Below are positions 9,724 to 46,358 of a DNA stretch of 46,358 bases, piece after piece (position 1 is the first letter of the stretch; each line of letters begins with the position of its first letter). The stretch lies in assembly GCA_018398765.1 (NCBI GenBank), contig JAHBMJ010000498.1:1-46358 (forward strand), written 5' to 3'. The notes beneath the pieces are model-generated. The model was not told the origin of the DNA. It ran no database searches and was given only the letters and a program-made list of their open reading frames with translations. The position numbers and the translations under genes are program-made. This DNA is from Chromera velia. Lineage: Eukaryota; Sar; Chromeraceae.

Positions 9724-10034
9724 TAAAGCTTCAGAGCGCTTCAGAGGTAAAGGCTGAGCGTGCAGCGTGAGAGAACTGCGTGCGTCATTATTTCAATACC
9801 CCGCCTGTGCGCGCGAGATTTTCGCTTTATGAGGCATGCAATGAGTCATTTCCCGGGAGCCGGCACCACGATAAGTTTAGGTGCTTCATTTATCGTGGTG
9901 CTGGCTCCCGGGAAATGACTCATTGCATGTTTCATAAAGCGAAAATCCTGCGTGCACAGGCGGGGTACTGAAATAATGATACACGCAGTTCTCTTACACT
10001 GCACGCTTTACCTCTGAAGCGCTCTGAAGCTTTA
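9724..10034. mobile_element. Long-hairpin MITE / foldback element, 311 bp
   Basis: Nearly the whole element is an inverted repeat: arm 9724-9874, loop of about 15 bases, arm 9890-10034. The ends read TAAAGCTTCAGAGCGC on both strands. It has no coding capacity. The arms differ mostly by transitions (CG to CA or TG) and one short indel. No clear target-site duplication is visible beyond the TA included in the ends. Non-autonomous foldback MITEs look like this. If transcribed it would give about 145 bp of double-stranded RNA. Confidence 0.85.
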
Positions 10035-14487: not shown

Positions 14488-14630
14488 ATGCATGCATGGA
14501 GGGAAGGAGACGCGTGCGCGGCGCCGCGCGTCGGATGCTCCGGGCCGGGACGTACATGCATGCATGCAGCGCGCGCCGGGGCGGCATGCATGCACGCAGG
14601 CCGGAGGAAGATGCATGGACTGCATGCATG
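14488..14630. promoter_or_regulatory. TGCATGCA motif cluster in a bidirectional promoter
   Basis: The 753-bp gap between the start codons of two divergent genes contains at least five separate ATGCATGCA/TGCATGCA sites (14488-14498, 14556-14568, 14584-14594, 14611-14617, 14621-14630) within 143 bp, mixed with a 14-bp GC palindrome (14516-14529). TGCATGCA is an established binding site of an apicomplexan ApiAP2 domain (PF14_0633 type). That it acts here on both genes is inference. Simple GC/AT alternation could also create such sites. Confidence 0.55.
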
Positions 14631-16153: not shown

Positions 16154-17169
16154 CAGTGTTATATGGAAGTAGGAGACATGGGGATAAGGTAATAAGAGAC
16201 TAAATAAGAGAGATAGATAATAATGGGGGTATGACGAAGGCAGAAAGAAGTAAGGAGTAATAGTAGGACAAGGAAGTATTGAGGCATGGCAGAGAAAGGC
16301 GGGGCCTGGCCCCGGATAGAACTTACACATAATATGTATACGATCGAGAGGCCCGCGGGAAGGGGCGAGTCTGGGCCGAATTACAGATTGTGTAATTTGG
16401 AATTACAGCTAGATTATATAATTTAGGAGTTTAAGGCCAACTTTAGGCCGAATTACAGATTGTGTAATTCGGAATTACAGATTATGTAATATGGGAGTTT
16501 AGGCCGAATTAGAGATTGTGCAATTCGGAATTACAGCTAGATTGTGTAATGTGGGAGTTTATAATATAGACCGAATTATAGATTATATAATTCAGAATTA
16601 TGGATCACATACTAATGTGGGAGTTTGGGCCGAATTACATATTGTCTAATTCGGAATTACGGATTGTGTAATGTGAAAGTTTAGGCCATGTAAATTTTAG
16701 ATTGTGTAATCTACATAAAATTACAAAAATTAGGAATTACAGAATATTTGTAATTCCACAAAAATGTAATTTCATAAACAAATTTCAGAAATAGAAAAAA
16801 AAAAAAATCAGAAGAAGCAAATTTAAAGGATTGCATCAGATCGAAAAACTTAAGAATAGAACACAAAATTCTGAACTTTTGACCAAATTACAAATTCTGT
16901 AATTCTTGATTACAAATTTTGTAATCTCACTTAGAGTCGATTATTAGCTGCCTTTAAACAGTGCCTTAGCTTATCTAGCTTCTTAATCTAGCTTACCACT
17001 TAACTACTAGCGATCAAACATAAAAAAAACATTCTATTCTACGTAATGGAATCCAATTAGTCTTACACACAAGTCCTTCAACGATCTTCCTACCTTCGTC
17101 ATACCCCTCTTATTATCTATCTCTCTTATGACCTCATCCCCATGTCTCCTACTTCTACATAATAACAGG
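16154..17169. mobile_element. Non-autonomous TIR element, about 1.0 kb
   Basis: Inverted repeats of about 100 bp mark the ends: 16154-16250 and, reversed, 17075-17169, sharing GAAGTAGGAGACATGGGGAT and AGAGAGATAGATAATAA...GGGGTATGACGAAGG. The interior has no ORF and contains a minisatellite. No clear target-site duplication was found. This fits a non-autonomous cut-and-paste transposon. Confidence 0.75.
16376..16690. repeat. Minisatellite with an internally palindromic unit
   Basis: About five degenerate units carry GCCGAATTACAGATTGTGTA followed by ATTCGGAATTACAG and GGGAGTTT. Within each unit CCGAATTACA and TGTAATTCGG are inverse complements, so each can form a small hairpin. It lies inside the 16154-17169 element. 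Confidence 0.85.
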
Positions 17170-28123: not shown

Positions 28124-28689
28124 GATGACGGACGATGCCGGGGACTTACGAGACTTTTGTTGTTGCAGTTTGGGTCGTGTCGATGAAATAAGCGGAGCCG
28201 CTTTCTCAGTCACAGACACCGAATTATATCAATCACGACACTTCAAGGTAGGGGAATACTCTCGGTATTGAACGCGCACGTCCAGCGATTGGGCTGGTCA
28301 CTCTTCAAAAGGGTGCGGTGATGGTTTGGACTTCAGTCAGTCAGTTCGTGACGGGCGAGTCAGAAAGAAAATCGTTCGAAGTTAGTCTGTCTGTTGAACA
28401 TTCTCAACACAGCTGGAGGCTGGCAAAGTCTAGGAGACTCATTTGCAGAAGCTGGAGAAACAAATCTCTGCGTCCGCAAAGGGGAAAACGTCTTCGAAAC
28501 GGCAAACTTCGTGTGCTCGGTCGGTCAGTGACGTGCCGCGGCTGCAACATTATTAATAATTTCATTTTGTGCATGCATGGTCGATCGGTTTCTTAATTGG
28601 AGCGTGCGCATGGAGCGCGCCGCGGCGCGCCCACGAAGCACCACATAGCACCATCCATCCACCATCATAGCACCACACATGCACACATG
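28124..28689. other. Promoter-side flank of the CCCH gene up to the palindrome
   Basis: No further gene seen. It contains a TGCATGCA site (28570-28577) and a perfect 16-bp GC palindrome (28615-28630) just outside the left end of the giant inverted repeat. A strong minus-strand donor-like GTAAGT near 28147 might belong to an untranslated exon. Confidence 0.45.
28615..28630. repeat. 16-bp perfect GC palindrome, left flank of the giant palindrome
   Basis: GCGCGCCGCGGCGCGC is its own reverse complement. It lies 60 bp outside the palindrome end at 28690. Confidence 0.95.
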
Positions 28690-29046
28690 CATGGCGGAGT
28701 TATATCGATATAATTCGTTCAGTTAATCTATCCGAAAAGTCGAAGTATACAGCTCATTACAGCTCTATATAGCTCTCAGGAGTCAGACCAATGGAGATCA
28801 ACCCTGGCTGTACATAGTCCTTCGTCTTCCGGCCTGTAAAGTTACAACAGGTGCATGCATTTGTACTCATCTGTTCCGATACTAATAAGATTCAGACAGC
28901 CGACAAGATCCCTGAGCGAGTGAGGCAGATCTGCAGCCAAGGGAACAAATGACATTTCTTTTCTTTTCCTCGACTCTGTATCACCTCTGTCGATGACGCG
29001 CGGGGGGTTTGAGCAGGAGCAAAGTGACGGGGGGGAGAGCTCTGAT

Positions 29047-30447
29047 ATGGAGGTTGACAACGATCCTGTGAGCGTGCTACCGATTACAGGTGGTATCACT
29101 TCACACGTCAACAACACAGGCCCCTTGTCCCCCGGCACACGCAGAGTGCCTGCCTCCTACCGCCAGAGAATAGTAAAACAGTGGTTCGAACTCTTTCTGC
29201 TTCCAGTTTTCGAACGAAAAAAGCTATTTCCGGTCAGCCAGTCAAGTCAGGCAGTGCGACGTACGTTGCTAACCGTGCGAACAAGATGTAAAAGATTTGT
29301 GCAGCTTCTCTGTCTTTCAGGGTTGTTTGGGATTGCTGGTATGGATGGCGGTTTTGTCTTCTCCTTTCTCATCTATTATATCTTCTCTTTTTTTAGACTG
29401 TTTTCCTTTCCTTTTCTTTTTTTTTTCTTTTCGGTGTCCGGTCTTTCCCCTCTTTGTTCTTTGATTTTTCCACAATGTCATACAGCTCTTCTATGGTTGA
29501 CCTTATACCGTGCTCACTCTAGCTTGCGTTTTCCCTTGCCTCAACAGTTTGATTCACCCCTCCATTCAATCATAGTGGTCACCTTTGTTCTCCTCTATCG
29601 TGACACTCTCTTGTTTTCACTTCTCCCCCTCCCTCCACATGTGCAGGTCTGGACAGGCATTCGCGCTTACGATCGGTGCTGGTTCAAATGGAAGTCGTGG
29701 GGCGATGGAGAAGAAAATGGCAACGGTGATCCTTTTGGGAATGTCCCCTTCGCAGACGAAAGGGGTGACGCTCCGCTTTGGGTGTGTGCAGAGCTCCTGA
29801 GTGCTCGCAGGGCTGTCAGTGAGGCGCTTCGGGAGAGCAAGGAGTGGAGTGAGTTGCTCGGTCCGGTGAGTGGGAATCCTTTAGTGGTCAAACCCGTCAG
29901 AGTGGCCCACATTGCCGTAGAAAAGTTCTCTCCCAAGAAATGGGAATCTCTGTATGTTCAATTACAGAAAGCGGCATCTGTGATGGACGGGTGGGTTCGG
30001 TTAAGAGGAGACATCTGTGCAAGTCCTATGTCTTTCCTGGAGGGCGACTTGGAGTCCGTCTTCACGCTGACCGAATCGGATTGGGGAAGAGTGCGAGAGA
30101 AGGAATCAAAGTACGAACGTCAATCAGAAGAAGTGATGCTCATAGGAGATCTGTCGTGACAGTGTAATAGTTATACAAATGTGCAGCTTCAGGACCGAAG
30201 GCCACGGCTTCTCCATGTGTTCTCTGAAGTCGCTCAATGCGAATCTGTCGCTCGGCTCTGGTTGCTTGTTTTCGTTTCTGGCGGTTCCCTGAGTGGCGTT
30301 GACATTGGATCCCTCGGACTGTTCCTCTCGAATGCGAACAAAGGAATCTTCCCGTACTTCCGCTCAGCAGGGGTCAGTCTGTCACTGACAGTCAATCAGA
30401 GATCCTTTGAAAGGAAGGCCCTTGGATCCCTCCCAGCATACTATTAG
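29047..30447 (+). pseudogene. Unrecognised arm gene, 5' part, left copy (one nonsense codon)
   Basis: The ATG at 29047 (MEVDND) is shared with the right arm; an earlier in-frame ATG at 28993 also exists. The first exon encodes a basic helical stretch (RQRIVKQWFELFLLPVFERK, then LLTVRTRCKRFVQLL). A T-rich intron ends in GTGCAG at 29646. The next exon starts VWTGIRAYDRCWFKWKSWGD and runs in one frame to a TAG at 30445-30447, also shared by both arms, but is broken in this copy by TGA at 30157-30159 where the right arm has CGA. A GTCAGT site at 30373 may be a phase-0 donor leading to the downstream exons. No known domain is recognised. The donor of the first intron is not resolved. Confidence 0.5.
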
Positions 30448-30892
30448 GGAAGGGACACAAAGTGGTTGCATTTCTTGTTTTTTTCACATGCATTCTCCTT
30501 TCTGTTCTGTGCATGTCAGTGCATGTTCGTTTTTTACTCCTAGGGCCAGTGTTACAAGTGAACGCTCTCCAGGTCTTTCATCCATACATCTCAACAGTCG
30601 ACGCATGCAGCTTTAGAGAGACCAAGCTTCCCTTGTCCGTCTCCTCTCCTCGTATGTCTTTCTTCCTAGCTGTCTGTCTGTTCTGGATTAACCCTCATTT
30701 CTCCGGGGTTCCTTTCCATATAATGTCCTTTCTCAGCATCCTCCTGTAAATCTGTTCAAATCAATTTCATTCTCTTGGAGCACAACAAACTGAAAGAACC
30801 TTGTGCGGGTCTATGTTTATAGGTGCATCTGTGTTTGTTTCCTCCCTCTTCTTTTCTGTGTTCTGTCTTTTGTGTTTGTTTGTCTCATCCAG

Positions 30893-32345
30893 GATGTGGT
30901 TACCTTTCTGTCTTGGAGAAAGGACTTCACGCTATTTCCATTGCTTCCTAAGAGGCAGGAGGTATCGCCTTCGCCTGTCTCTGCTTCTTCTGTACCTGCC
31001 TCCGCTTCGGCTTCATCTGCCCGCCAGTGGACGTCTTCTTTGGACTTTTGGGAGACGGGGGCGAGTGGCCCTGCAGTGTTCCGATTCGTTGAAACTTCAG
31101 CAGAATTACGAAGCAGAACAGACGAGGATGCGGGGGGTGAGTGGAGAAGTTCATGGGGCGAGAGAGAGAGTCATGCAGTGCGCAAGAGAGAAGTGGCAGC
31201 TCTCGATGAGAGAGGGTGGAGGAGATTCGCAGATTCCTTTCCTCCTCTCTGTCTATTGGAGAGTGGTTGAACACTATCGAGAGTCTGACTGGCAGACTTT
31301 GTATGAGATTCTCAGGGGAGCTGCTGAAGGGGGGGCACGTGAGATTGGTTGGAGGGTTCTGAGTAAGATCATTCAAAAGAAACCCGAGCTTCTGATGGAA
31401 CCCTCGGTGGTGTTTCATATGAGGGAGTTGGAGGCAGAGACAGAAGTGGAGAAGCAAGCATTTGGGGAGAGGGAGATGAACGATATCGACGCGTTGCCTG
31501 TGGGTGCAGGGGAAGACAAAGGGGAGGAGGGGGGCTGGGCTCTCGAACCCAGAGTCGTTCACAGCCCTTCTCCCCACGGACAGGCGACCGTGATTCAGGG
31601 GGGGGAGGGAAGTGGAGCGGCTGACCTGGCTCGTCGCGTCAGATCCCAATCAGCAGGCAAAGCAGCGGCATCCTCGTTTCCCCCCCTCATGCAGACCTCA
31701 CGTCCCAATTTTCCTTTCCCCTCGTCGTCAGTGTCTCTGCAGAAGAGGCCCGCCTCCAGGCCTGCCTCTGCATCTCTGCAGGCACCTGTCAGTCAGCTCC
31801 CATCCTGCTCATCCTATCTGAGGGCCCATCAAAAACGCAGGCAAAGAGAGAAATCCAACAGAAGTCTGCGGGAAGACCTTCCGTCCGAGCTTCCCGTCGC
31901 TTGGGCACACTTTCAAGCTTTCGGGGTGTGGGGGGCAGAGGGAGAAGGAGACGGAGGAGAGGGGTGGAATGAGGAAGAAGAAAAAATTGAGGGAGGGGAC
32001 GGGGGGACGAGGGGAGAGGAGGAAGAGCAGGAGGAGGTCGTGCAAGACTACGAGACCCCTCAAAGGACGCTCGCGCGCAATTGGAGAAGCCTTCAGGGAT
32101 GCACGAGTCAACATAAACAGTCAGTCAGTTCATTTTGTTTGCAGGTAGAGTCATTGGTTTCTGTTGTCTTCTCAACAATTGTCTCCATTGCCTGAAATCT
32201 TCCCCCATTGTGTGCGCGGCCGTTTCAGGCAGCAAGGCTTTACCAGCTACCGAGGTGGCAGACTGCCGAGCTTGCTCAGTATGACGTACCCGTTCACAAC
32301 TTGGTGGGGAAAAAACTGAAAATTCGATTGATCGGGATCATGTAG
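30893..32345 (+). CDS. Unrecognised arm gene, 3' part, left copy
   Basis: The acceptor at 30892 (TTTGTCTCATCCAG) opens a long exon. From about 31080 its clear frame reads LQQNYEAEQTRMRGVSGEV, YWRVVEHYRESDWQTLYEIL and GWRVLSKIIQKKPELLMEPS (helical), then a Ser/Pro/Gly-rich disordered region and an acidic stretch. The frame between 30893 and 31080 is uncertain. A last exon, 32229-32345 after TTTCAG, reads AARLYQLPRWQTAELAQYDV and ends KLKIRLIGIM with TAG. Both pieces recur in the right arm. This is either the 3' end of the gene starting at 29047 or a second gene. No family recognised. This copy has no nonsense codon that I see in the main exon. Confidence 0.45.
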
Positions 32346-34393
32346 ACGCATGTAGATGGCTCGCTTTGTAAACAACGCTGAGTAGATTACAGGTTCTTTC
32401 CGGTTCTTTCTGATTTCTATCGAGTTGAGTTGTAAGCTTCGAACTTCCGATGTTGGCTTTGAATGTTCTAATTGGTCGCATTCTAATGGTCGGGGGGCCG
32501 TGCGCTTTCGAAATCGTTTATCCGCCGGGACAGACCATTAGACTTATGTGGCGCAAATGCGTACGTGCTTACTTGTCAAGCTGTGGGCTTTCCAATAGCC
32601 ATCAGTCATGCTGTGATGTAGTAGGTCATGCAGTTATGGCTGGTGTTGATGTATGTCTCAGAGTCTGCCGTTGGAAAGTCCGTCTGATCTTGTGCCAATT
32701 GTCTTGAGATGAGGGGAGGGCCCAGCGAGGACTCCGAGCGGGGGCTGAGCCTCGACAATGATGTGAACGCAGCAGTATCGATCGATCAGGGGGCGGGACG
32801 AAGTGAACGCAGAAGCAGTACTCTTAGGGATTGCCGACGTCAACGCACGCGCCGGGAGGACCTTCTATATATAGGGAGCTGGCCGGGGGCTTAGCGGGGG
32901 CCTTCAAGGGGGGTTCTCATCCATGAGAGACAACGGCACAGATGCGTATGTTGTTTGTGCGTGCATGCGACCATATACGCGCCAGGTCTTCCCAAATCTC
33001 TCTCTCTCTCTCTCACTGACAAGCATCTCTCGACTATTCAAAACGACTTCTTTTGCCTGCAAACAGCTCGGTCTTTCTCTGTGTGAAATTGTTCGTGCAG
33101 GCAAGCGGCGGTGCAGGGACAAGCAGCGACACAGGGGCAAGCGGAGAACCAGGGAAGAGCGGCGAAAAAGGTCAACAAGAAAAAGAAAAAGTGATTCTTC
33201 CCCCACGAGTCGAGTCGAGTCGGAAACGGGGTCTTTCTCTCTCTCACACACACACAGACACACACGCATACACAGAGAGGGAGGGAGAGAGAGAGGGGGG
33301 GGGAGGGAGAAAGTTTCAGCGAGGTAAAAGAAGGAGAGGCACATGGATGAACAGAGCGTTGTCTGTTCCGACGTCTTTCGACGATCCAAATATCTCTCAC
33401 TTCAAGTCCACCTTTGTTATCCTTCCCCTTCCCTCTGGGTGTCTGGTTCTCTTCCTATCATTACTGATACCTGGTTCCTTTAACAAGAATTCGCTCTCTC
33501 TGATTTACTGATACAGAATTCGCTACCTGGTTTATTACTGATACTGAATTCGCTCTCTCCTTCCTCGCTACTTTTAACCCTTTGCTCGTGCATGGGTCCG
33601 TGGCCTGATCGAGGAATCTTCTGTGATAGATGTTTATGGCACACGGTTTACCCCTTCTTTCAACTCGAAAAGAAGAGGATCGCTCCTTGTCTCAACTACA
33701 TGGCTTTTTGCGTTCCCACCACTTCCATACACCCCAATCCCTGGCTTTGGGTCTCTTTCTTGTTTGGCCGTATTTTCTTTTTTCTTTGCCTCTTTCCGTT
33801 ACGGTGCGTGCCAAGAGACCAGGCAAGGGGAATGAATCAATTCCGTATGGAAGTGGACTAAATCTGTGCACGTACCTAGCTGCGTTTCTTCAATCTTTAC
33901 ATGAGCTTTGGCATGTATGAGGCTGCTATGAGCTGTCAAAATATGGTGGAGTTGCTGCTGGACAGAGAGAAAACAAAGTTTAATTAAAGGCCCTGAGCTT
34001 TGCATAAAGTCCAAAAACATTTAGTGCTGCACTGTGTACTGCAGTTTAATTGCATATCTATTCTATTCTTACTGTGCATAGGCCAAGTTATGGGGTTATA
34101 TAGGGTACATGGGGAGTACTTATGGTTGTCTATAGCCTAGACTCTGCACTGTAAAAAATTACCACTAGTAAAAATGAAGATACACAAAAAATATTGAGAT
34201 GATTCTTTTATCTATATAACATATTTTTAATTTTTTTTTCTGTCTTTTTTTTTTTTTAAATAATACTACATGGACATCCTAACAAACAGATGGGAAATTG
34301 AAACAACCCTAAGGCCACAAAAAGTTGTATAAAAATGTCATGATAGAAATATTATAAAAATATAATAAGTATAGAATATTACAGGCCGTAACA
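32346..34393. other. 3' flank and inner part of the left arm, no gene supported
   Basis: Contains CT/GA and CA tracts (about 33000-33300), an AT-rich block from about 34000, and TATATATAG near 32870. Frames here are low in complexity. The right arm contains the inverted equivalent of most of it, up to about 34080. Confidence 0.5.
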
Positions 34394-34700
34394 TTCAGGT
34401 CATACACTTTATATATATAGAGAGCCTATATATAATAGAGGGAGAGTTTCGAATATTTTTTTCTATTTTTTTATTTATTAAAAACACTATGATTTTGGGC
34501 CCAAATGTTCCTAAACACTTCTCAAAGTACTTCAACTATAGATTTTATAGAAATACAATTAAGATTTAGATTTAGGAGCAGGCGGTGACCACGGGAGACG
34601 GTGGAGACCAGGGCCAGATGTGGAGTACCCTCTTTAGGTTTGTGAATAACTGGGAGTCAGGCCTGGGGGGGAACAAGGTTGTGTTACGGTCTACTCATAC
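34394..34700. repeat. Direct repeat A flanking the inserted LINE
   Basis: About 307 bp, from TTCAGGTCATACACTTTATA to GTGTTACGGTCTACTCATAC. It is about 97% identical to 37010-37317, and an inverted copy of its inner part starts the right arm at 38300. Confidence 0.95.
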
Positions 34701-37009
34701 TTACTTACTTACTTAATTGTGGTTAAGCCTAGAGTCTCTGAAATCAGAGACAAATGGCAATCCATGCATATAGTTGTAAACAAAAGGAGCAAACCGCCAC
34801 AGCTTAGCCTGCTTCCGCATGAATATGAACATCCACAACCCTCCGCAGCCTAGGCTGAAGCTAAAGGCTAAACAACCACACAAGATGCACGTGTACTCAT
34901 TTTAGACAAGTTTCGATCAGTACACTTGCCTTCTTTGGCTCCCGGTCCACAATGAATGAAACGAGCTCTCTTACATATGTCTCTTCTTCCCCGATACCTC
35001 TTCCCCCAGCTGTAGCAGTCCATCTTGCTCTGCAGACCCTTTCACCGATTCCTGTTCTCTCTTTCACAGTTTCACTCTCTCTGCCAGCGAATGAAGTTTG
35101 AATCTAAGCTGCTCTGTTCATACGCATACAGACAATCGATGTATCGCATCGTCGATCACCTTTTTACCTTCGACTGCAGGACAGTGAATACAGTGTTCTT
35201 CGCAGGATCCACCGTGTCTCTTTCCCCCAGCAGCACATGCTCAAAAGAGAGAAGTGAAAAGAGAACCACTAGTCTAAGATAAGAGAGAGCAAAGCAGAGT
35301 ACGCGTTTGAACTGTGTAACCCCACCCCTTTCTAACCCTCTCCCCTAAAAGTAACATAGCCAGACGCTGGTGCGATCGGTTTTCTATCTAAAAATTACTC
35401 AGTCGGGAGTTGCGTGGATAGATGTCACATGAATGGGTAAGCCTATGCTCGCCGACGAGTCTTGAAGTCAACCATTCCGATAACCATTCTGAGGCTTCTC
35501 TTTTCCTTACTTTCTGCCTGAGTGTCCATTTATTTGTTCTGTTTCTCCCTCTTTGGCTTTCTTTTCTCAAAAGATCTGGTGCGATTGTCTGAAGCATGCT
35601 ACTGGCTGAATTGGCCCATACCGGGGTCAGCAATCTATGCCATGTATCCCAGACTGCCCAAAGAACCTCCCTTCCTGTTTTCTTTATGCTTTCTATGAAA
35701 CCTCCCAACCGACAAGAAAGGATCTCTCTCATGGGACGCACCTCAACCAAAACCAAAGTTGGCACCTTGAAAGAGTTATAGGGCAAACGGAATGTCCAGC
35801 GCACAAATCGAAGCTGCAATGCATCAAGTGCAACGATATCTCTCTGACTTACTGGCAAGGCTTCCAACGAGTACGTTGCCTGCAGTAAACGAACTTTGCA
35901 TCGGGGGGGCAAAGGACCTAAGGATGAATAAGTGCCCATCACTGCCCCCAAACAGCGTTCAGCACTTTCAAGTCAGTCCCTGACTAACTTTCGTGGGTCC
36001 CCTCCCTCAAACACACGACACCCAAGGTATTTATAACTCTCTACATGTTCAACTGTCTTCCCTTCAAAAGTCACTTCCCTTTCTATTTCCCTTCTTGAGC
36101 CTGAGAGTACGAGAACTTTTATTTTCTTTAAATTCACTTTCAACCCATGTTCCTGACAATAAGAGGCCAAACGGTCCAAACGCCACTACAGGTTAGAAGA
36201 AGAGTGAGCAAAAATAACAAGATCGTCTGCGTAACCTATGCTCTTAAGCAGTAAGTCCGCCAATCTTACCTCCTCAGGGATACGGGGTCGCTGCTCCGTT
36301 GTTTCACTCTCTTCCCTCCTCTCTCCGCATTTTTCCCCCCTCTGTCTTTCATCCGTATCTGATTCCCCATCCAAGCCGTTAACAGCTTCCCTCCCTTCAA
36401 CACTCAGAGCAGAATGAATATTATTAATAAACAAAAGAAAAAGAAGAGGAAAAAGTGGATCTCCCTGTTTTACCCCTGCACTTTCGGGAAAGACCCAATC
36501 CGACCCGTCTACCCTTCCCCACACATTGATATACATGGAATGAATCATGCACATGTCCTTCTCGCTGACTTCTTCCTCTCTAAGTCTGTCAATCATTCTC
36601 TTTCTGGGTACTCGGTCAAATGCCTTGCTGAAGTCAACAAACGCTGCAAGAAAGGGTCTATGTCTCTTCTTTGCTGAAGCCGTGAGAGCATGAAGAGTAG
36701 CTATTGCTTCTCTTGTACCGACCCCCTTCCTGAAACCCACCTGTCGTTTATCTATATTCGTTGTCTCCCTTAACCGGCCATCCATCAACAATGCGAACAA
36801 CTTTGCTAGAAGGCAGACGATGTATATGGGCCTCCATTTGTCACAAGAGGGAGAGATGTGACCTTTTATAGAACAGGAGCGATTCGAATGAAGTTCCACT
36901 TTTCTGGCCAGAAAGAAAAAAGGAGAAAAAGATTGAAAAAAATGAAAAGAAGAAAACGAGACAGACGGGAAGAGAAAAAGCATAAATGTACCTGCACAAG
37001 GGAGATTCC
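34701..37009 (-). mobile_element. 5'-truncated LINE inserted at the palindrome centre
   Basis: On the minus strand the element ends with TAAG repeats (plus-strand TTACTTACTTACTTAA at 34701-34716), a simple-repeat 3' tail of the kind seen in several LINE clades. Its body encodes a reverse transcriptase and a C-terminal domain. The 5' end is cut within the reverse transcriptase fingers, near 37009. It is flanked on both sides by a 307-bp direct repeat. About 690 bp of 3' UTR lies between the RT-C-terminal frame and the tail. Confidence 0.8.
35388..36983 (-). pseudogene. LINE reverse transcriptase, nearly open (two in-frame stops)
   Basis: A single frame runs over about 530 codons with only two stops, a TAG at 36186-36188 and a TGA at 35973-35975. 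The palm motifs are all there in order: KWRPIYIVCLLAKLFALLMD (fingers), FVDFSKAFDRVPRKRM (motif A with the catalytic Asp), GVKQGDPLFPLLFLLFINNI (motif B), GYADDLVIFAHSS (motif C with the catalytic Asp pair), GLKVNLKKIKVLVLS (motif D) and YKYLGCRVF (motif E). A thumb/C-terminal region without a recognised domain follows. The segment upstream of about 36905 looks intron-like, with a TGCAG/GTACAT donor near 36992 and TTCTGGCCAG acceptor near 36905. If spliced, it adds GLKESPLCR in phase to the start. The stops could come from CAG and CGA by C-to-T change. Not functional as it stands. Confidence 0.85.
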
Positions 37010-37317
37010 TTCAGGCCATACACTTTATATACAGAGAGAGCCTATATATAATAGAGGGAGAGTTTCGAATATTTTTTTCTATTTTTTTATTTATTAAAAA
37101 CACTATGATTTTGGGCCCAAATATTCCTAAACACTTCTCAAAGTACTTGAACTAGAGATTTTATAGAAATACAATTAAGATTTAGATTTAGGAGCAGGCG
37201 GTGACTACGGGAGACGGTAGAGACCAGGGCCAGATGTGGAGTACCCTCTTTAGGTTTGCGAATAACTGGGAGTCAGGCCTGGGGGGGGAATAAGGTTGTG
37301 TTACGGTCTACTCATAC
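37010..37317. repeat. Direct repeat B flanking the inserted LINE
   Basis: Second copy of 34394-34700. It ends at the same base (CTCATAC), after which unique spacer DNA begins. Confidence 0.95.
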
Positions 37318-38299
37318 CGCAACTTAAATATTTGATCGTCCTGAGACGTTTTGCTGTCTGTGTTCTTTGGCAGACATCACAAGAATTACAATAAATGAAG
37401 TGAGAGCAGATAGTAGACTGAGAAGCGGAAGGTCCCGGGTTTAATTCCCAGCTCGATCTGTCTCTTTTACCTTTCAGGAGAAGCCGATTTTGGAGCTGCA
37501 CGCAAAACCAATTCCGTGTGGCGAGCCGCAGCCGAGACTGCACGATGCTCCACAAGAATCAGAAATTAGCCGATTATGAAAGAAGAAAAATGCAGAGCCA
37601 AATAGTTTGAGTCACATCCAAATTCAGTGGAGGACGATCAACCTCTCCAACTCTCAGTCGTGATGAGTCATCACCTCCAATGAACTCTGATCAACTCAAC
37701 CTCTTTAAGATCTCATCCATCCCTTCCTGCACACATGAACACATGCACTACAAAGAAGAAACAGAGTAGAGATGCCTAAACGTATAGAAGCAATCCAGAC
37801 AAGAGGTCGGGCATAGAAGGCCTTCTGGCGATACTTCAGATCAAAATAGTCGATCCCGGGTCTCGTCTGAGCTAGCTAGCTGGAGCCTTTGGCTGCATGG
37901 CCCCTACCTTCACGTGATTTCCTTGGAGAACAAATGTACGCTAAAGCTCTCAAAGACTTCAGACTTGGCTTTCTAGAATAGAAAGAAACTTAATAGAATG
38001 ACTGACCTTCATATACGTCTAGAACCTTCTAGCTCTCACCTCCTTAGAGTCAGATGGTGCCTACGTCATCCTACGTCCTCTCTCATAGCGTGAGAGTATG
38101 ACGTAATATATGGTGACGCCAGCGAGAGCTCTAGTAGTTCTGACCACAAGCAACCTGTCTGGTATGAAAGAAAGAGGATAAGTCAGGAGCAACCCACTGA
38201 AAAGGCACTTGCCACTGAAATTAAGTCACACCGAGCCTTCGTTCTTCCGGATGAGCTCTTTTCTATAGAAACCGAACTTGATGCTGCATGAAGTTTTTT
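37318..38299. other. Unique spacer of the palindrome
   Basis: About 980 bp not shared with either arm. No ORF with a recognisable motif. It contains a tRNA-like segment, listed separately. Confidence 0.6.
37420..37475 (+). ncRNA. tRNA-like / SINE-like remnant in the palindrome spacer
   Basis: A T-arm-like fold CCGGG (37435-37439), loop TTTAATT, CCCAG (37447-37451) with one mismatch, followed by a TCTCTTTT run. The B box deviates by one C-to-T change (GGTTTAATTCC for GGTTCRANNCC). Upstream sequence does not close into a full cloverleaf. Probably a decayed tRNA-derived sequence. Confidence 0.3.
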
Positions 38300-39495
38300 A
38301 ACCTTGTTCCCCCCCAAGCCTGACTCCCAGTCGTTCACAAACCTGAAGAAGGTACTCCATATCTCACCCTGGTCTCCCGTGGTCACCGCCTACTCCTAAA
38401 TCTAAATCTTAATTGTATTTCTATAAAATCTATACTTCAAGTACTTTGAGAAGTGTTTAAAAACATTTGGGCCCAAAATCGTGGTGTTTTTAATGAATAA
38501 AAAAATAAAAAAAAGTATTGAGAGAGAGAGCTAGCAGCAAGAGCAGTAATTAGGCAGAAGGAAGACACGAAAGACGTATAAGCCAGATGCTAGGACTAAA
38601 CTTTAAGTCAATGCCCCCCCCCCTCCAAAAAAACTTGGCCTATACACAGTAAGAATAGAATAGATGTGCAATTAAGTTGTAGTATACAGTACAGCACTAA
38701 ACGTTTTTGGACTTTATGTAAAGCTCAGGGCCTTTAATTAAACTTTGTTTTCTCTCTGTCCAGCAGCAACTCCACCATATTTTGACAGCTTATAGCAGCC
38801 TCATACATGCCAAAACTCATGTAAAGATTGAAGAAACACAGCTAGGTACGTGCACAGATTTAGTCCACTTCCATACGGAATTGATTCATTCCCCTTGCCT
38901 GGTCTCTTGGCGCGCACCGTAACGGAAAGAGGCAAAAAAAAAAGAAAATACGGCTAAATAAAAAAGAGACCCAAAGCCAGGGATTGGGGTACATAGAAGT
39001 GGTGGGAATGTAAAAAGCCGTGTAGTTGAGACAAGCCTTTAAGTTAGGAGCGATCCTCTTCTTTTCAAGTTGAAAGAAGGGGTAAACCGTGTCCCATCAC
39101 AGAAGATTCCTTAATCAGGTCACGGACCCATGCACGAGCAAAGGGTTAAAAGTAGCGAGGAAGGAGAGAGCGAATTCAGTATCAGTAATGAGCCAGGTAG
39201 CGAATTCTGTATCAATAAATCAGAAAGAGCGAATTCTTATTAAAAGAACCAAGTATCAGTAATGATAGGAAGAAAACCAGATACCCAGAGGGAAGGGGAA
39301 ATATAACAAAGATGGTCCAGGACTTGAAGTGAAAGATACTTGGATCGTCGAAAGACGTCGGAACAGACAACGCTCTGTCCATCCATGTGTCTCTCCTTAA
39401 TTTTTTTACCTCGCTGGAACTTTCTCCCTCCCCCCCTCTCTCTCTCTCCTTCCTTTTCTGTGTGTGCATGCGTGTTTCTATGTATGTGAGACTAA

Positions 39496-40070
39496 GGGGG
39501 GGCACTTCAGCTGGTTACACTATGGTTACTGACCCTATACCCCCCCCTTACAACGTGTGACATGTAACCATCAGTCAAAAGTGATGCTAATCGATTAGTT
39601 ACGTTTGGTTACCCACAAAACTGGCTTCAAGATTGTTAAACAATTTAGGTTATGCTCAAAAATAATGAAAAATGATGTGTCACACTTATTTTACCCCCAA
39701 ATTCCCCGTAACCGGGTAACCCGTAACATTTTTTGACCCCCCTCAAAAATGAAATAACCTCCCTCAAAAAGCATTCAAACGTGATCTAAACATTATTTTG
39801 AATGCTTTTAAAAGTTGAAAATTTGGTTGGTTATTGAGCTTAAAATGCTCATAACCGGGTAACCTGTAACCTCTTTGTGTGACAAAGATAAAAAGGGGGT
39901 AACCCAAAGTAACCACGTAGCCTACACTTCAAAAACATCAGATTTTGACGTAACTTGACCAAGCGGAGCTCCAGGTTGCCGGACTAGCTCACAAAAAATT
40001 CAATCTGTTTTTGTTCACATTTTATGTCACTTTGGGCTCAAAATCCACCATAACCTTCCAGAGTGCCCCT
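39496..40070. mobile_element. MITE-like insertion private to the right arm, about 575 bp
   Basis: The left arm lacks this segment. The ends are imperfect inverted repeats (GGGGCACTTCAGCTGGTTA and, reversed, GGGGCACTCTGGAAGGTTA). The interior repeats GTAACCGGGTAACC-like motifs and has no ORF. No clear target-site duplication. Confidence 0.75.
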
Positions 40071-40766
40071 GTCTAGGTGTGTGAGAGAGAAAAAGACCCC
40101 GTTTCCATCTTAACTCGACTTATGGGGGAAGAATCACTTTTTCTTTTTCTTGTTGACCTTTTTTGCCGCTCTTCCCTGGTTCTCCGCTTGCCCCTGCATC
40201 GCTGCTTATCCCTGCACTGCCGCTTACCTGTACAAACAATTTCACACAGAGAAAGACCGAGCTGTTTGCAGGCAAAAAAAGTCGTTTTGAATAGTCGAGA
40301 AATGCTTGTCAGAGAGAGAAAGAGAGAGATTTGGGAAGACCTGGCGCATATATGGTCGCATGCATGCACAAACAACATACGCATCTGTGCCGTTGTCTCT
40401 CATGGATGAGAACCCCCCTTAAAGGCCCCCGGCCAGCTCCCTATTATAATATATAGAAGGTCCTCCCGGCGTGTGCGTTAACGTCGGCAATCCCTAAGAG
40501 TACTGCTTCTACATGCACTTCGTCCCGCCCCCTGATCGATTGATACTGCTGCGTTCACATCATTGTCGAGGCTCAGCCCCCGCTCGGAGTCCTCGCTGGG
40601 CCCTCCCCTCATCTCAAGACAATTGGCACAAGATCAGACGGACTTTCCAACGGCAGACTCTGAGACATACATCAACACCAGCCATAACTGCATGACCTAC
40701 TACATCACAGCATGACTGATGGCTATTGAAAAGCCCGCAGCTTGACAAGCAAGCACATATGCATTT

Positions 40767-41962
40767 CGCAACGCGGAAGGTGGTTATACAGATGTGTATG
40801 AACCAATTAGAAGGGTCTGAAATTTTTGAGCCAGTTAAGCCGGTCCGCGTAATTCCGGCGGCGCCCAAGGCCCAGAAAGACATCAAATTGGTCCTCAGAG
40901 GCCGCTAAGTGCGTTGGTGCAAGAATTTGTACCAAAACTTTCCAGAACCACTCTCAAAATCCTGAAATTGTGCTTAGAATGCTCAAAAAGCACACCAACA
41001 CACAGAGAAGGGTCATTTCGTCCTCTTGTCCCTTCCTGTCTACCTTCTTGTGTAGAGCAGTACCGATAGTCAAACTAGTACAATTCCGCTCCCCTAGTAC
41101 TAGACAGTTTGCCTCTGTGTCGGGGTGAAGTCTTGTGGCACAGTTGATCTGCTTTGGCGTGTCTGGCAGCTCCAGTCTGGACCAGTCAGGAAAGTACCTC
41201 CCAGGCCTCCAAAGCAATATTCCTTCTTTCTACTAGGAGGCCGCAGAATCGATCCCCAGCAATTTTGCCCAATGCCCTGTGTCTGTTGTCATCCTCCCAG
41301 GCCAGCGGGATAGGTTCCTGGTGAGTCTGCTAGTTGTGGGAAGGTGAGATTGTTTTGTCTTCCTGTTGTGGAGAATTAGCGTCTCAGGGGTATTAATCGA
41401 CCTCTAGCTCTCCCGGTAAGTGGTTCTATCCTGCTCTTTCCCTCCAGACAGGAGCATATGAGTGTTGGGCAATACCTTTGTGCGATGGCTGCAGGTTTGA
41501 AGTGCTCAAGAAGGAAAAAGCCCTTCCGGCAATTTGACATAGGGCGCCATCTGGAGTGTATCTTTCTGTTCATGAGCAGACTTGTCAGTTGAAGTCCACA
41601 GTGCATCAACCATTCCTTATCCCCTGTTGGAACTAACTTACCTGAACCAGATGGAGCGTGTTGGTATGCATTTTATCATCATTGATGTACCACAGCCCTT
41701 TCTGAACTTCTAAGTCCAGGAAGGCTATTTTAGCCTCTTCAGGTGTCAGACCTCAGACGTCCATTCTTTGGACTCCCTGTGATTCTGGGAGTCGTTTTTT
41801 CTACACCAAGCAGCTAGAGAGAGTCTAAAGAGGCGAACTGACGTCTCTTAGGGTCGTTGTTTTGAGTCTAGGAGGGAAAAGGGAAATTTTTGAGCTGGTT
41901 AAGGTCTGGGGGCGGGTTCTAATTAGTCCATGCACATCTGTATGACCCGCCGCCGCGTTACG
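40767..41962. mobile_element. TIR element private to the right arm, about 1.2 kb
   Basis: The left arm has an uninterrupted GCATTTGCGCCACATAAG at this point; the right arm reads GCATTT, then the element, then GCCACATAAG. The ends are imperfect inverted repeats (CGCAACGCGG...ATACAGATGTGTATG...CAATTAGAA and its inverse, CGTAACGCGG...ATACAGATGTGCATG...TAATTAGAA), extending to a shared AAATTTTTGAGC. No transposase frame is recognised, so it is probably non-autonomous. The empty site in the left arm shows insertion after the arms formed, or precise loss from the left arm. Confidence 0.85.
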
Positions 41963-42186
41963 TTACGCCACATAAGTCTAATGGTCTGTCCCGGCGGATA
42001 AACGATTTCGAAAGCGCACGGCCCCCCGACCATTAGAATGCTAGATTAGAATACGAGCAATTAGAATATGCAGAGCCAACATCGGAAGTTTGAAGCTTAC
42101 AACTCAACTCGATAGAAATCAGAAAGAACCGGAAAGAACCTGTAATCTACTCAGCGTTATTTACAAAGCGAGCCATCTATATGCGT

Positions 42187-43476
42187 CTACATGATCCCGA
42201 TCAATCGAATTTTCAGTTTTTTCCTCACCAAGTTGTAAATGGGTACGCCATACTGAGCATAACTGAGCAAGCTGCCACCTCGGTGGCTGGTAAAGCCTTG
42301 CTGCCTAAAATGGCCGCGCACACAATGGGGGAAGATTTCAGGCAATGGAGACAATTGTTGAGAAGACAACAGAAACTAATGACTCTACCTGCAAACAAAA
42401 TGAACTGACTGACTGTTTATATTGACTCGTGCATCCCTGAAGGCTTCTCCAATTGCGCGCGAGCGTCCTTTGAGGGGTCTCGTAGTCTTGCACGACCTCC
42501 TCCTGCTCTTCCTCCTCTCCCCTCGTCCCCCCGTCCCCCCGTCCCCTCCCTCAATTTTTTCTTCTTCCTCATTCCACCCCTCTCCTCCGTCTCCTTCTCC
42601 CTCTGCCCCCCACACCCCGAAAGCTTGAAAGTGTGCCTAAGCGACGGAAAGCTCGGACGGAAGGTCTTCCCGCAGACTTCTGTCGGATTTCTCTCTTTGC
42701 CTGCGTTTTTGATGGGCCCTCAGATAGGATGAGCAGGATGGGAGCTGACTGACAGGTGCCTGCAGAGATGCAGAGGCAGGCCTGGAGGCGGGCCTCTTCT
42801 GCAGAGACACTGACGACGAGGGGAAAGGAAAATTGGGATGTGAGGTCTGCATGAAGGGGGGAAATGAGGATGCCGCTCCTTTGTCTGCTGATTGGGATCT
42901 GACGCGCCGAGCCAGGTCAGCCGCTCCACTTCCCTCCCCCCCCTGAATCACGGTCGCCTGTCCGTGGGGAGAAGGGCTGTGAACGACTCTGGGTTCGAAA
43001 GCCCAGCCCCCCTCCTCCCCTTTGTCTTCTCCTGCACCTACAGGCAATGCGTCGATATCGTCCATCTCCCTCTCTCCAAATGCTTGCTTCTCCGCTTCTG
43101 TCTCTGCCTCCAACTCCCTCATATGAAACACCACCGAGGGTTCCATCAGAAGCTCGGGTTTCTTTTGAATGATCTTACTCAGAACCCTCCAACCAATCTC
43201 ACGTGCCCCCCCTTCAGCAGCTCCCCTGAGAATCTCATATAAAGTCTGCCAGTTAGACTCTCGATAGTGTTCAACCACTCTCCAATAGACAGAGAGGAGG
43301 AAAGGAATCTGCGAATCTCCTCCACCCTCTCTCATTGAGAGCTGCCACTTCTCTTTTGCGCACTGCATCACTTTCTCTCTCGCCCCATAAACTTCTCCAC
43401 TCACCCCCCGCATCCTCGTCTGTTCTGCTTTGTAATTCTGCTGAAGTTTCAACGAATCGGAACACTGCAGGGCCAC
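42187..43476 (-). pseudogene. Unrecognised arm gene, 3' part, right copy (nonsense)
   Basis: Inverted copy of 31060-32345. The frame 43476-42637 is collinear with the left copy but stops at TAG (42637-42639) where the left arm has TGG (Trp). The last exon (about 42305-42187) has a small frameshifting change yet still ends KLKIRLIGIM with TAG. Inactive copy. Confidence 0.6.
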
Positions 43477-44090
43477 TCGCCCCCATCTCCCATAAGTCTA
43501 AAGAAGACATCCATTGGTGGGCAGATGAAGCCGAAGCAGAGGCAGGTACAGAAGAAGCAGAGACAGACGAAGGCGATACCTCCTGCCTCTCAGGAAGCAA
43601 TGGAAACAGCGCGAAGTTCTTTCTCCAAGACAGAAAGGTAACCACTTCCTGGATGAGACAAACAAACATAAAAGACAGAACACAGAAAAGAAGAGGGAAG
43701 AAACAAACACAGATGCACCTATAAACATAGACCCGCACAAGGTTCTTTCAGTTTGTTGTGCTCTAAAAGAATGAAATTGACTTGAATAGATTTGCAGGAT
43801 GCTGAGAAAGAACATTATATGGAAAGGAACCCCGGAGAAATGAGGGTTAATCCAGAATAGACAGAGAGCTAGGAAGAAAGACATACGAGGAGCGGAGACG
43901 GACAAGGGAAGCTTGGTCTCTCTAAAGCTGTATGCATCGACTGTTGAGATATATGGATGAAAGACCTGGAGAGCATTCACTTATAACACTGGCCCTAGGA
44001 GTAAAAAACGAACATGCACAGACATGCACAGAACAGAAAGGAGAATGCGTATGAAAAAAACAATAAATACAACCATTTTATGTCCCTTCC

Positions 44091-45511
44091 CTAATAGTAT
44101 GCTGGGAGGGATCCACGGGCCTTCCTTTCAAAGGATCTCTGATTGACTGACAGTGACAGACTGACCCCTGCTGAGCGGAAGTACGGGAAGCTAGACAGGA
44201 AGGTTCCCTTGTTCGCATCCGAGAGGAACAGTCCGAGGGATCCAATGTCAACGCTTAGCCTACTCAGAGAACCGCCAGAAATGAAAATAAGCAACCAGAG
44301 CTGAGCGACAGATTCGTATTGAGCGACTTCAGAGAACACATGGAGAAGCCGTGGCCTTCGGTCCTGAAGCTGCATATTTGTATAACTATTACACTGTCGC
44401 GACAGATCTCCTATGAGCATCACTTCTTCTGATTGATGTTCGTACTTTGATTCCTTCTCTCGCACTCTTCCTCAATCCGATTCGGTCAGCGTGAAGACGG
44501 ACTCCAAGTCGCCCTCCAGGAAAGACATAGGTCTTGCACAGATGTTTTCTCTTAACTGAACCCACCCATCCATCATAGATGCCGCTTTCTGTAGTTGAAC
44601 ATACAGAGATTCCCATTTCTTAGGAGAGAACTTTTCTACAGCAATGTGGGCCACTCTGGCGGGTTTGACCACTAAAGAATTCCCACTCACCGGACCGAGC
44701 AACTCACTCCACTCCTTGCTCTCCCGAAGCGCCTCACTGACAGCCTTGCGAGCACTCAGGAGCTCTGCACGCACCCAAAGCAGAGCGTCACCCCTTTCAT
44801 CTGCGAAGGGGACATTCCCAGAAGGATCACCGTTGCCATTTTCTTCTCCATCTCCCCACGACTTCCATTTGAACCAGCACCGATCGTAAGCGCGAATGCC
44901 TGTCCAGACCTGCACATGTGGAGGGAGGGGGAGAAGTGAAAACAAGAGAGTGTCACGATAGAGGAGAACAAAGGTGACCACTATGATTGAATGGAGGGGT
45001 GAATCAAACTGTTGAGGCAAGGGAAAACGCAAGCTAGAGTGAGCACGGTATAAGGTCAACCATAGAAGAGCTGTATGACATTGTGAAAAAATCAAAGAAC
45101 AAAGAGGGAAAAGACCGGACACCGAAAAGAAGAAAAAAAGAAAAGGAAAGGAAAACAGTCTGAGAGAAGAGAAGATATATAATAGATGAAAAAGGAGAAG
45201 ACAAAACCGCTATCTATACCAGCAACCCCAAACAACCCTGAAAGACAGAGAAGCTGCACAAACCTTTTACATCTTGTTCGCACGGTTAGCAACGTATGTT
45301 GCACTGCCTGACTTAACTGGCTAACCGGAAATAGCTTTTTTCGTTCGAAAACTGGAAGCAGAAAGAGTTTGAACCACTGTTTTGCTATTCTCTGGTAGTA
45401 GGAGGCAGGCACTCTATGTGTGCCAGGGGACAAGGGGCCTATGTTGTTGACGTGTGAAGTGATACCACCTGTAATCGGTAGCACGCTCACAAGATCGTTG
45501 TCAACCTCCAT
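44091..45511 (-). pseudogene. Unrecognised arm gene, 5' part, right copy (nonsense)
   Basis: Inverted copy of 29047-30447, with the ATG at 45511. It has TGA at 44472-44474 in place of Trp TGG, and upstream a TAG at 45542-45544 in place of CAG. It keeps CGA where the left copy has TGA. Relative to the left copy it carries two in-frame length differences (6 and 12 nt) in the last exon, which suggests that exon was once under coding constraint. Confidence 0.6.
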
Positions 45512-45868
45512 ATCAGAGCTCTCCCCCCCGTCACTTTGCTCCTACTCAAACCCCTCACGCATCATCGACAGAGGTGATACAGAGTCGAAGAAAAGAAAAG
45601 AAATGTGATTTGTTCCCTTGGCTGCAGATCTGCCTCACTTGCTTAGGGATCTTATCGGCTGTTTGAATCTTATTGGTATCGGAACAGATAAGTACAAATG
45701 CATGCACCTGTTGTAACTTTACAGGCCGGAAGACGAAAGACTATGTACAGCCAGGGTTGATCTCCATTGGTCTGACTCCTGAGAGCTATATAGAGCTGTA
45801 TACTTCGACTTTTCGGATAGATTATATAACTGAACGAGTTATGAATTTATCGATATAACTCCGCCATG

Positions 45869-46358
45869 TGCAGATGTCGCGGCGGCGCGGCCTGCATGCG
45901 CGCGCGGCGCCGCGCGCACCGCGAATCGATATATGCAGCCGATCGCGGCGCCCGCGCCGCCACCGATGCCACGCACCGATCGTTGTGCACATTTGTGGCT
46001 TGAAGCCCTCAGATGAGAGGTTGGCCCCGAAAAGCTAGCTTCATACACTAAAAAAAAAAATGAGTTTGATTTTTTTTTAAATTCTGATTTTATAGTTTTT
46101 GTAGAGTTTTTCATAGGTTTTCAAACATTTTTTAAAACTTGAAATAAAATTGTAAAATAAAAAAGTAAAGAAATGTCCTAAGGTGAGAAACCGTTCGATC
46201 CTCTAGAATTTTTCTAAAACTTTTATGATAGCGATGTTTCAATTCTATCTAGAACAGTAGAAAAACAACATGAAACCAGAAGAGATCACCTCATTAATTA
46301 GCGTGTTGGACTTTGTCCGCAACACGCCTCCTGCTGAGCTCTTCGACATTCTCTGTCA
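45869..46358. other. Right flank of the palindrome, AT-rich, no gene
   Basis: GC-rich at first (palindrome at 45900-45917), then AT-rich. No ORF with a motif. A perfect 8-bp stem (GCGTGTTG at 46301-46308 with CAACACGC at 46320-46327, 11-base loop) lies near the edge, of unknown meaning. Confidence 0.5.
45900..45917. repeat. 18-bp perfect GC palindrome, right flank of the giant palindrome
   Basis: GCGCGCGGCGCCGCGCGC is its own reverse complement. It lies 32 bp outside the palindrome end at 45868 and directly follows TGCATGC. Confidence 0.95.

Follow-up and report, generated by a model that had tools for sequence, protein, structure and literature searches.

Contig JAHBMJ010000498.1 of the chromerid alga Chromera velia (assembly GCA_018398765.1), whose entire 46,358 nt form the window analysed here, carries a 17-kb imperfect palindrome at positions 28690 to 45868 with a gene copy in each arm. 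The question raised by this locus is whether such a structure represents an inverted segmental duplication or a giant transposon of the foldback type that carries a gene as a passenger, both of which had been considered in the initial annotation of the sequence. Comparing the window (48% guanine plus cytosine, GC) with itself and with the assembly (177.8 Mb in 4,040 contigs), we arrive at an inverted segmental duplication at a single locus, produced by fold-back or template-switch repair and followed by decay of the right arm, to which we assign a probability of roughly 72%. The genome of C. velia has been given as 193.6 Mb, with transposons accounting for ~30 Mb (PMC4501334). An exon for alpha-tubulin in the assembly (L051) has its highest scores against the Toxoplasma PDB entries 7tnt and 7miz (924 bits each), followed by 9r4x with 901 bits. 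All match counts from our genome searches are lower bounds.

Two inverted arms at a single locus

BLAST comparison of the window with itself resolves the arms into four collinear inverted blocks, a similarity far above chance:

28690..34680, plus strand: left arm, with the intact-looking gene copy (self-BLAST, alignment)
38300..45868, minus strand: right arm, the inverted copy, which has insertions of its own and a one-sided excess of C-to-T differences (self-BLAST, substitution spectrum)
28690-32556 against 45868-41963, inverted: block 1, 94.5% (self-BLAST)
32555-33251 against 40766-40077, inverted: block 2, 92.7% (self-BLAST)
33242-34089 against 39491-38632, inverted: block 3, 89.8% (self-BLAST)
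34452-34680 against 38519-38300, inverted: block 4, the inner block, 88.2% (self-BLAST)
39484..40078, no strand: private insertion of ~595 bp, right arm only (gap in arm alignment)
40767..41964, no strand: private insertion, right arm only, a 1.2-kb element with ~46-bp terminal inverted repeats
45997..46358, plus strand: young multi-copy repeat, starting at 45991-45997, within which the contig ends (genome search)

When aligned globally, the main block (28690-34089) showed 251 mismatches in 5,370 aligned columns, corresponding to 95.3% identity, and the palindrome contains no Ns. The earlier description of inverted copies from end to end with sharp outer ends holds for the inversion and for the ends, beyond which the flanks share only chance 7-8-nt matches, but not for the full length, as left-arm positions 34090-34451 (362 bp) and right-arm positions 38520-38631 (112 bp) have no self-BLAST match to each other. 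At the centre, the two arms share their final base (AAGGTT at 34675-34680; AACCTT from 38300), which is also where a long terminal repeat (LTR) starts (34680). Since the inner arm sequence 34394-34677 was found by genome search at three places only, all of them in the window, the arms truly extend to this point and end at the same base. With gaps skipped, the arms are perfectly identical over stretches of 232, 208 and 187 bp. These exceed the runs obtained by shuffling (P = 0.003 for the longest), show a clustering matched in 0 of 5,000 shuffles, and may reflect gene conversion between the arms or uneven rates. Among the two insertions private to the right arm, the 1.2-kb element has at least 39 other near-full copies at 89-92% identity among the matches listed (best 40 of 206 candidates scored), and the repeat at the contig end recurs at eight other places with 99-100% identity over at least 200 bp.

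Whether the palindrome is mobile was addressed by searching the genome for its terminus, a check proposed with the initial annotation. The terminal 201 bp gave exactly two matches, which are the two ends of this locus, and a mobile element is thereby left unsupported. The outer 3,865 bp of the left arm returned the two arms and five weaker matches (three pieces on contig C2954 at 67-75%, one on C529 at 84% over 119 bp, and one on C26 at 75% over ~100 bp), with no third full-length match in the genome search. A multi-copy foldback element was rejected on the copy number of both probes. More generally, a large foldback transposon with a passenger gene is extremely improbable: it would suit the long inverted arms and the sharp ends, and the self-complementary CATG at each outer end, which is either arm sequence or a 4-bp target-site duplication, could be read in its favour, but the terminus occurs only here, none of five arm frames tested contains a Pfam family, and the gene has a paralogue on contig C2954, where no inverted pair of at least 150 bp was found on the fetched contig (L033, L034). 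Two inverted copies at one locus with no other full copies fit the inverted segmental duplication, the other of the two initial suggestions.

The centre and the origin of the palindrome

The centre of the palindrome contains two transposon fragments:

34394..34700, plus strand: 308-bp direct repeat, copy 1, adjoining the LINE (self-BLAST)
34701..37009, minus strand: fragment of a long interspersed nuclear element (LINE) with a reverse transcriptase frame, its 3' tail being TTAC units on the plus strand (Pfam RVT_1, E = 5.4e-19)
37010..37317, plus strand: 308-bp direct repeat, copy 2, adjoining the LINE (self-BLAST)
37297..38276, plus strand: spacer, a truncated LTR retrotransposon consisting of the 5' LTR and ~170 bp of leader and ending short of the right arm (genome search, copy comparison)
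38277-38299: stretch between LTR fragment and right arm, assigned to neither

A spacer of about 1 kb before the LINE insertion had been noted initially, and its size (~980 bp) is as described, but the spacer is itself a fragment of a dispersed LTR retrotransposon. It starts with TGTGTTACGG, and its first 21 bp are also present at 34680-34700. Genome search returned at least 40 matches, 14 of them long besides the spacer itself (best 40 of 82 candidates scored), and the relatives begin with TGT(G)TTAYGG, preceded in several of them by a purine-rich tract. Because of this start, and because some relatives are paired as terminal repeats, e.g., two copies of 92% identity on contig C3848, the spacer can be identified as 5' LTR plus leader, of which the window copy is truncated and unpaired. 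It is 82-87% identical to the 14 relatives compared, with 23 private changes, including 8 transversions, in 778 columns. None of the 14 other long copies, at 13 loci (L020-L032) with 5-10 kb around each, lies between inverted arms, and the LTR element was on these grounds rejected as the driver of the palindrome. Inverted pairs of at least 150 bp across 20 loci (L020-L039) comprised only the LTRs in L035 and one 448-bp pair of 81% identity in L031, which does not flank the LTR there.

The 3' part of the LINE has at least 39 other copies at 87-91% identity among the matches listed (best 40 of 287 candidates scored). The two copies of the 308-bp repeat, one on each side of it, are 96.4% identical and probably represent a long target-site duplication of the LINE; since the beginning of the LTR lies within this repeat on either side of the LINE, the LINE was inserted after the LTR.

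We favour fold-back or template switching as the origin of the palindrome because of the layout of arm, loop and inverted arm, the differing outer flanks and the absence of other copies, and we also count in its favour that the loop, a dispersed element, breaks off ahead of the right arm and that both arms end at the same base. In the proposed course of events, an LTR retrotransposon would have resided just downstream of the gene, beginning at present position 34680. A break or stalled fork in the leader of this element would then have permitted a fold-back of the strand, or a switch of template, to the AAGGTT on the border of the element, whereupon ~6 kb would have been copied backwards to 28690, giving arm, LTR-fragment loop and inverted arm, and the new end would have been joined to other DNA, the present right flank. 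The left gene would have stayed open while the right one became a pseudogene, decaying mainly by C-to-T changes as local repeats do, and finally the 1.2-kb inverted-repeat element would have entered the right arm and the LINE the centre. The arms, the nature of the loop, the later arrival of the LINE relative to the LTR, the stops of the right copy and the one-sided differences rest on observation, whereas we infer both the fold-back step and the choice of the original arm.

Several points weigh against this course of events. The base-exact junction of arm end and LTR start has to be a coincidence under the proposed order; the microhomology AAGGTT/AACCTT is only suggestive, with AACCTT near the matching place in one of four relatives (L020) in a loose alignment; and the right flank that can be judged amounts to only ~122-128 bp, the contig stopping 490 bp past the right arm with ~362-368 of those bases belonging to the young multi-copy repeat. 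No coincidence is needed if two identical broken ends, as in a fusion of sister chromatids, were joined tail to tail and the palindrome came first, with a fragment of retrotransposon complementary DNA either taken up as filler or entering the apex afterwards and being trimmed, since both arms would then end at one base and the LTR would start there with its own terminus. This fusion is the main rival, and we consider it unlikely. The 8 private transversions of the LTR fragment in 778 columns, compared with 26 in 5,370 columns for both arms, weakly hint that the fragment is older than the duplication, but this argument from age is weak, given that identity among the relatives is itself only 80-93% and that the relative L032, with 26 private changes including 10 transversions, has more of them than the fragment. 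Fold-back or template switching is, in our judgement, the most likely origin.

A misjoin of paralogous or allelic loci during assembly would offer an entirely different account, and the path indeed crosses a LINE present in many copies, while shortly beyond the right arm the contig terminates in a repeat. Such an artefact is nevertheless very improbable: the matching 308-bp repeats on both sides of the LINE, the section of the path that has close relatives elsewhere, make the path through it consistent; for the LTR fragment, which connects the LINE with the right arm, no long match other than itself exceeds 82% in the best 40 of 82 candidates scored (a short 140-bp piece reaches 86%); and alleles would be expected to share their outer flanks, which these arms do not. 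Likewise, the 251 mismatches of the main block, the private insertions and the differing outer flanks bear out the initial statement that this is no simple assembly mirror of one sequence.

Regarding the LINE itself, nine other copies were checked with one 130-bp flank each, and two of the nine also have long direct repeats. The copy on C754 (L061/L062) shows a repeat of ~305 bp at 94% with an overlapping 177-bp match at 95%, and the other copy (L063/L064) one of 152 bp at 99%, between C3241 and the start of C2525; adjacency of these repeats to the other end of the LINE is not established, and the C754 flank, which also matches C2218 at 96%, may itself be a repeat. Among the remaining flanks, five have no further near-full match among the matches listed and two belong to dispersed repeats. 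As a lead, these observations point to a LINE family whose target-site duplications measure 150-300 bp. The bases directly before the LINE tail are ATAC in the window (34697-34700) and in six of the nine other copies (L052-L060), a seventh having ATAC one tail unit earlier, and this recurrence hints at a preferred cleavage site of the LINE.

One-sided C-to-T decay and the gene copies

The gene copies were compared by blastp of stop-free translated pieces with contig C2954:

28993..31850, plus strand: left gene copy, ends approximate, splice sites putative (blastp against C2954)
42637..45570, minus strand: right gene copy, likely pseudogene, ends approximate (codon comparison)

The left copy matches the C2954 paralogue at 29140-29262, 29641-30153, 30181-30384, 30878-30961 and 31065-31811, with 34-76% amino-acid identity for the blastp pieces, and its frames gave only insignificant matches in NCBIfam and PDB. 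The right copy has an in-frame stop at the position of left-arm 30082, inside an exon shared with the paralogue, a second stop in the same frame at the position of 31902, past the conserved stretch, and, within a single exon, insertions of 6 and 12 bp that keep the frame. Between the copies there are 46 non-synonymous differences at 1,279 sites (pN 0.036) and 19 synonymous differences at 392 sites (pS 0.048). A drifting pseudogene is the most likely reading of the right copy.

Investigating the substitution spectrum of the main block, we observed that 225 of the 251 mismatches are transitions and 26 are transversions, and that the left arm has C or G where the right arm has T or A 177 times, with the reverse 48 times (p = 1.5e-18). 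By region, the asymmetry amounts to 55 versus 13 in exons, 30 versus 11 in introns and uncertain sequence, and 79 versus 19 in the non-coding 3' part. Using the C2954 paralogue as outgroup in a protein-guided comparison of 1,596 positions with 64 exon differences, 30 sites were found changed in the right arm (24 of them C-to-T) and 17 in the left (9 C-to-T), with 17 undecided. C-to-T rates in the right arm are 0.112 at CG, 0.042 at CHG and 0.060 at CHH (0.027, 0.011 and 0.019 in the left arm), CpG and CpA being the contexts hit hardest. Plant-type CHG methylation was rejected as the cause, as the CHG rate lies below that of CHH.

Nineteen pairs of repeats from loci L020-L046, each no shorter than 350 bp and no less than 88% identical, served as a control, and their 464 transitions against 89 transversions in total indicate that the repeats of this genome are generally transition-rich. 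Directional bias occurred in none of the 19 pairs (smallest p 0.091), 10 of which have at least 20 transitions, enough to reveal a split like that of the arms; to be set against the contrast, however, are the pairs themselves, which overlap, comprise 17 direct and 2 inverted ones and in 9 of 19 cases have fewer than 20 transitions. Also on the opposing side are the inner block 34452-34680, homologous but without asymmetry (8 versus 7), the 5' flank, whose 7 versus 2 lacks significance, and the left gene frames, which were picked for being open and hence lack stops by construction. A reversed asymmetry in left-arm 34000-34680 (19 versus 34) was set aside, this interval including 34090-34451 with its lack of BLAST homology.

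In the 1.2-kb element private to the right arm, 30 of 34 private changes are C-to-T, and in four other copies of this element the corresponding counts are 5/12, 12/21, 25/27 and 20/24. Together with the control pairs, these copies indicate that C-to-T decay is common in ageing repeats of this genome, and the right arm behaves like an abandoned repeat. Its decay may be caused by cytosine methylation or silencing; methylation is plausible because cytosine-5 DNA methylase domains are present on three contigs. Under a more specific proposal, hairpin RNA from the convergent copies would direct cytosine methylation to one arm, which would be erased by mutation, and leave the other untouched, as a one-sided genome defence resembling repeat-induced point mutation. 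Repeat-induced point mutation introduces C-to-T changes into both duplicates and acts before meiosis via a RID-type methylase, and here the changes fall mostly on the right arm (177 versus 48). We regard the hairpin-RNA proposal as improbable. The one-sided decay is a clean example of its kind for which a new mechanism is not needed.

Apart from these main features, two perfect all-GC palindromes near the outer ends, recognised only in hindsight, may represent islands resembling promoters or sites prone to breakage:

28615..28630, no strand: perfect 16-nt all-GC palindrome, 59 bp beyond the left outer end (scan)
45900..45917, no strand: perfect 18-nt all-GC palindrome, 31 bp beyond the right outer end (scan)

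A third one, of 14 nt, lies at 14516-14529, and across 162 kb of other loci no palindrome of at least 14 nt with at least 90% GC was found. Elsewhere, the window contains a 686-amino-acid open frame that by eye is ankyrin-repeat-like (11449-13509, minus strand), a degenerate 56-bp tandem array of GGCCGAATTACAGATTGTGTAATTCGG-like units with internal inverted symmetry (16367-16687), and a hairpin-like structure whose two inverted arms, of 118 bp each, show 91% complementarity across a 15-nt gap (9757-10007).

Relation to known systems

The structure is a known kind of duplication. No inverted duplication in C. velia was found in the full-text PubMed Central literature, which leaves subscription papers and preprints outside, and among the PubMed Central papers found for palindromes and this species, none concerns genome palindromes by its title or the start of its abstract; the sole match in PubMed Central full text for repeat-induced point mutation in connection with alveolates, cytosine methylation or Chromera, PMC9998398, names no chromerid in its available part. 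The locus argues against a new class of foldback elements at this site. In addition, it provides an internal clock in the form of two copies of equal age, of which one was kept and the other abandoned, the abandoned DNA differing mainly by C-to-T changes, and thereby gives straightforward access to DNA silencing in a lineage near the apicomplexans.

Foldback transposons such as Tetris (PMC4079207) share with this locus the long inverted arms around a loop, whereas here no other genomic copies were found, there is no demonstrable target duplication, and the arms carry an exon-built host gene with a paralogue. Fungal repeat-induced point mutation, named in PMC9998398, resembles the present case in the excess of C-to-T changes in a duplicate, with CpG and CpA affected most, but here the changes are strongly one-sided and background repeats are transition-rich without asymmetry. 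Human fold-back duplications (PMC3907307) and yeast foldback inversions (PMC10622511) differ from the palindrome of C. velia, which is old, 6 kb in arm length, located inside a contig and found in a chromerid alga, and at which terminal deletion or telomere capture is not visible. They share with it inverted arms around a single loop, and a single event at one locus. In yeast, foldback inversions have inverted repeats of 3-15 bp at their centres (PMC10622511), and in human fold-back duplications 13 of 21 sequenced junctions have 2-8 bp of inverted microhomology, while all 21 have a loop, of 766-70,466 bp (PMC3907307), a range that includes the loop of ~980 bp described here.

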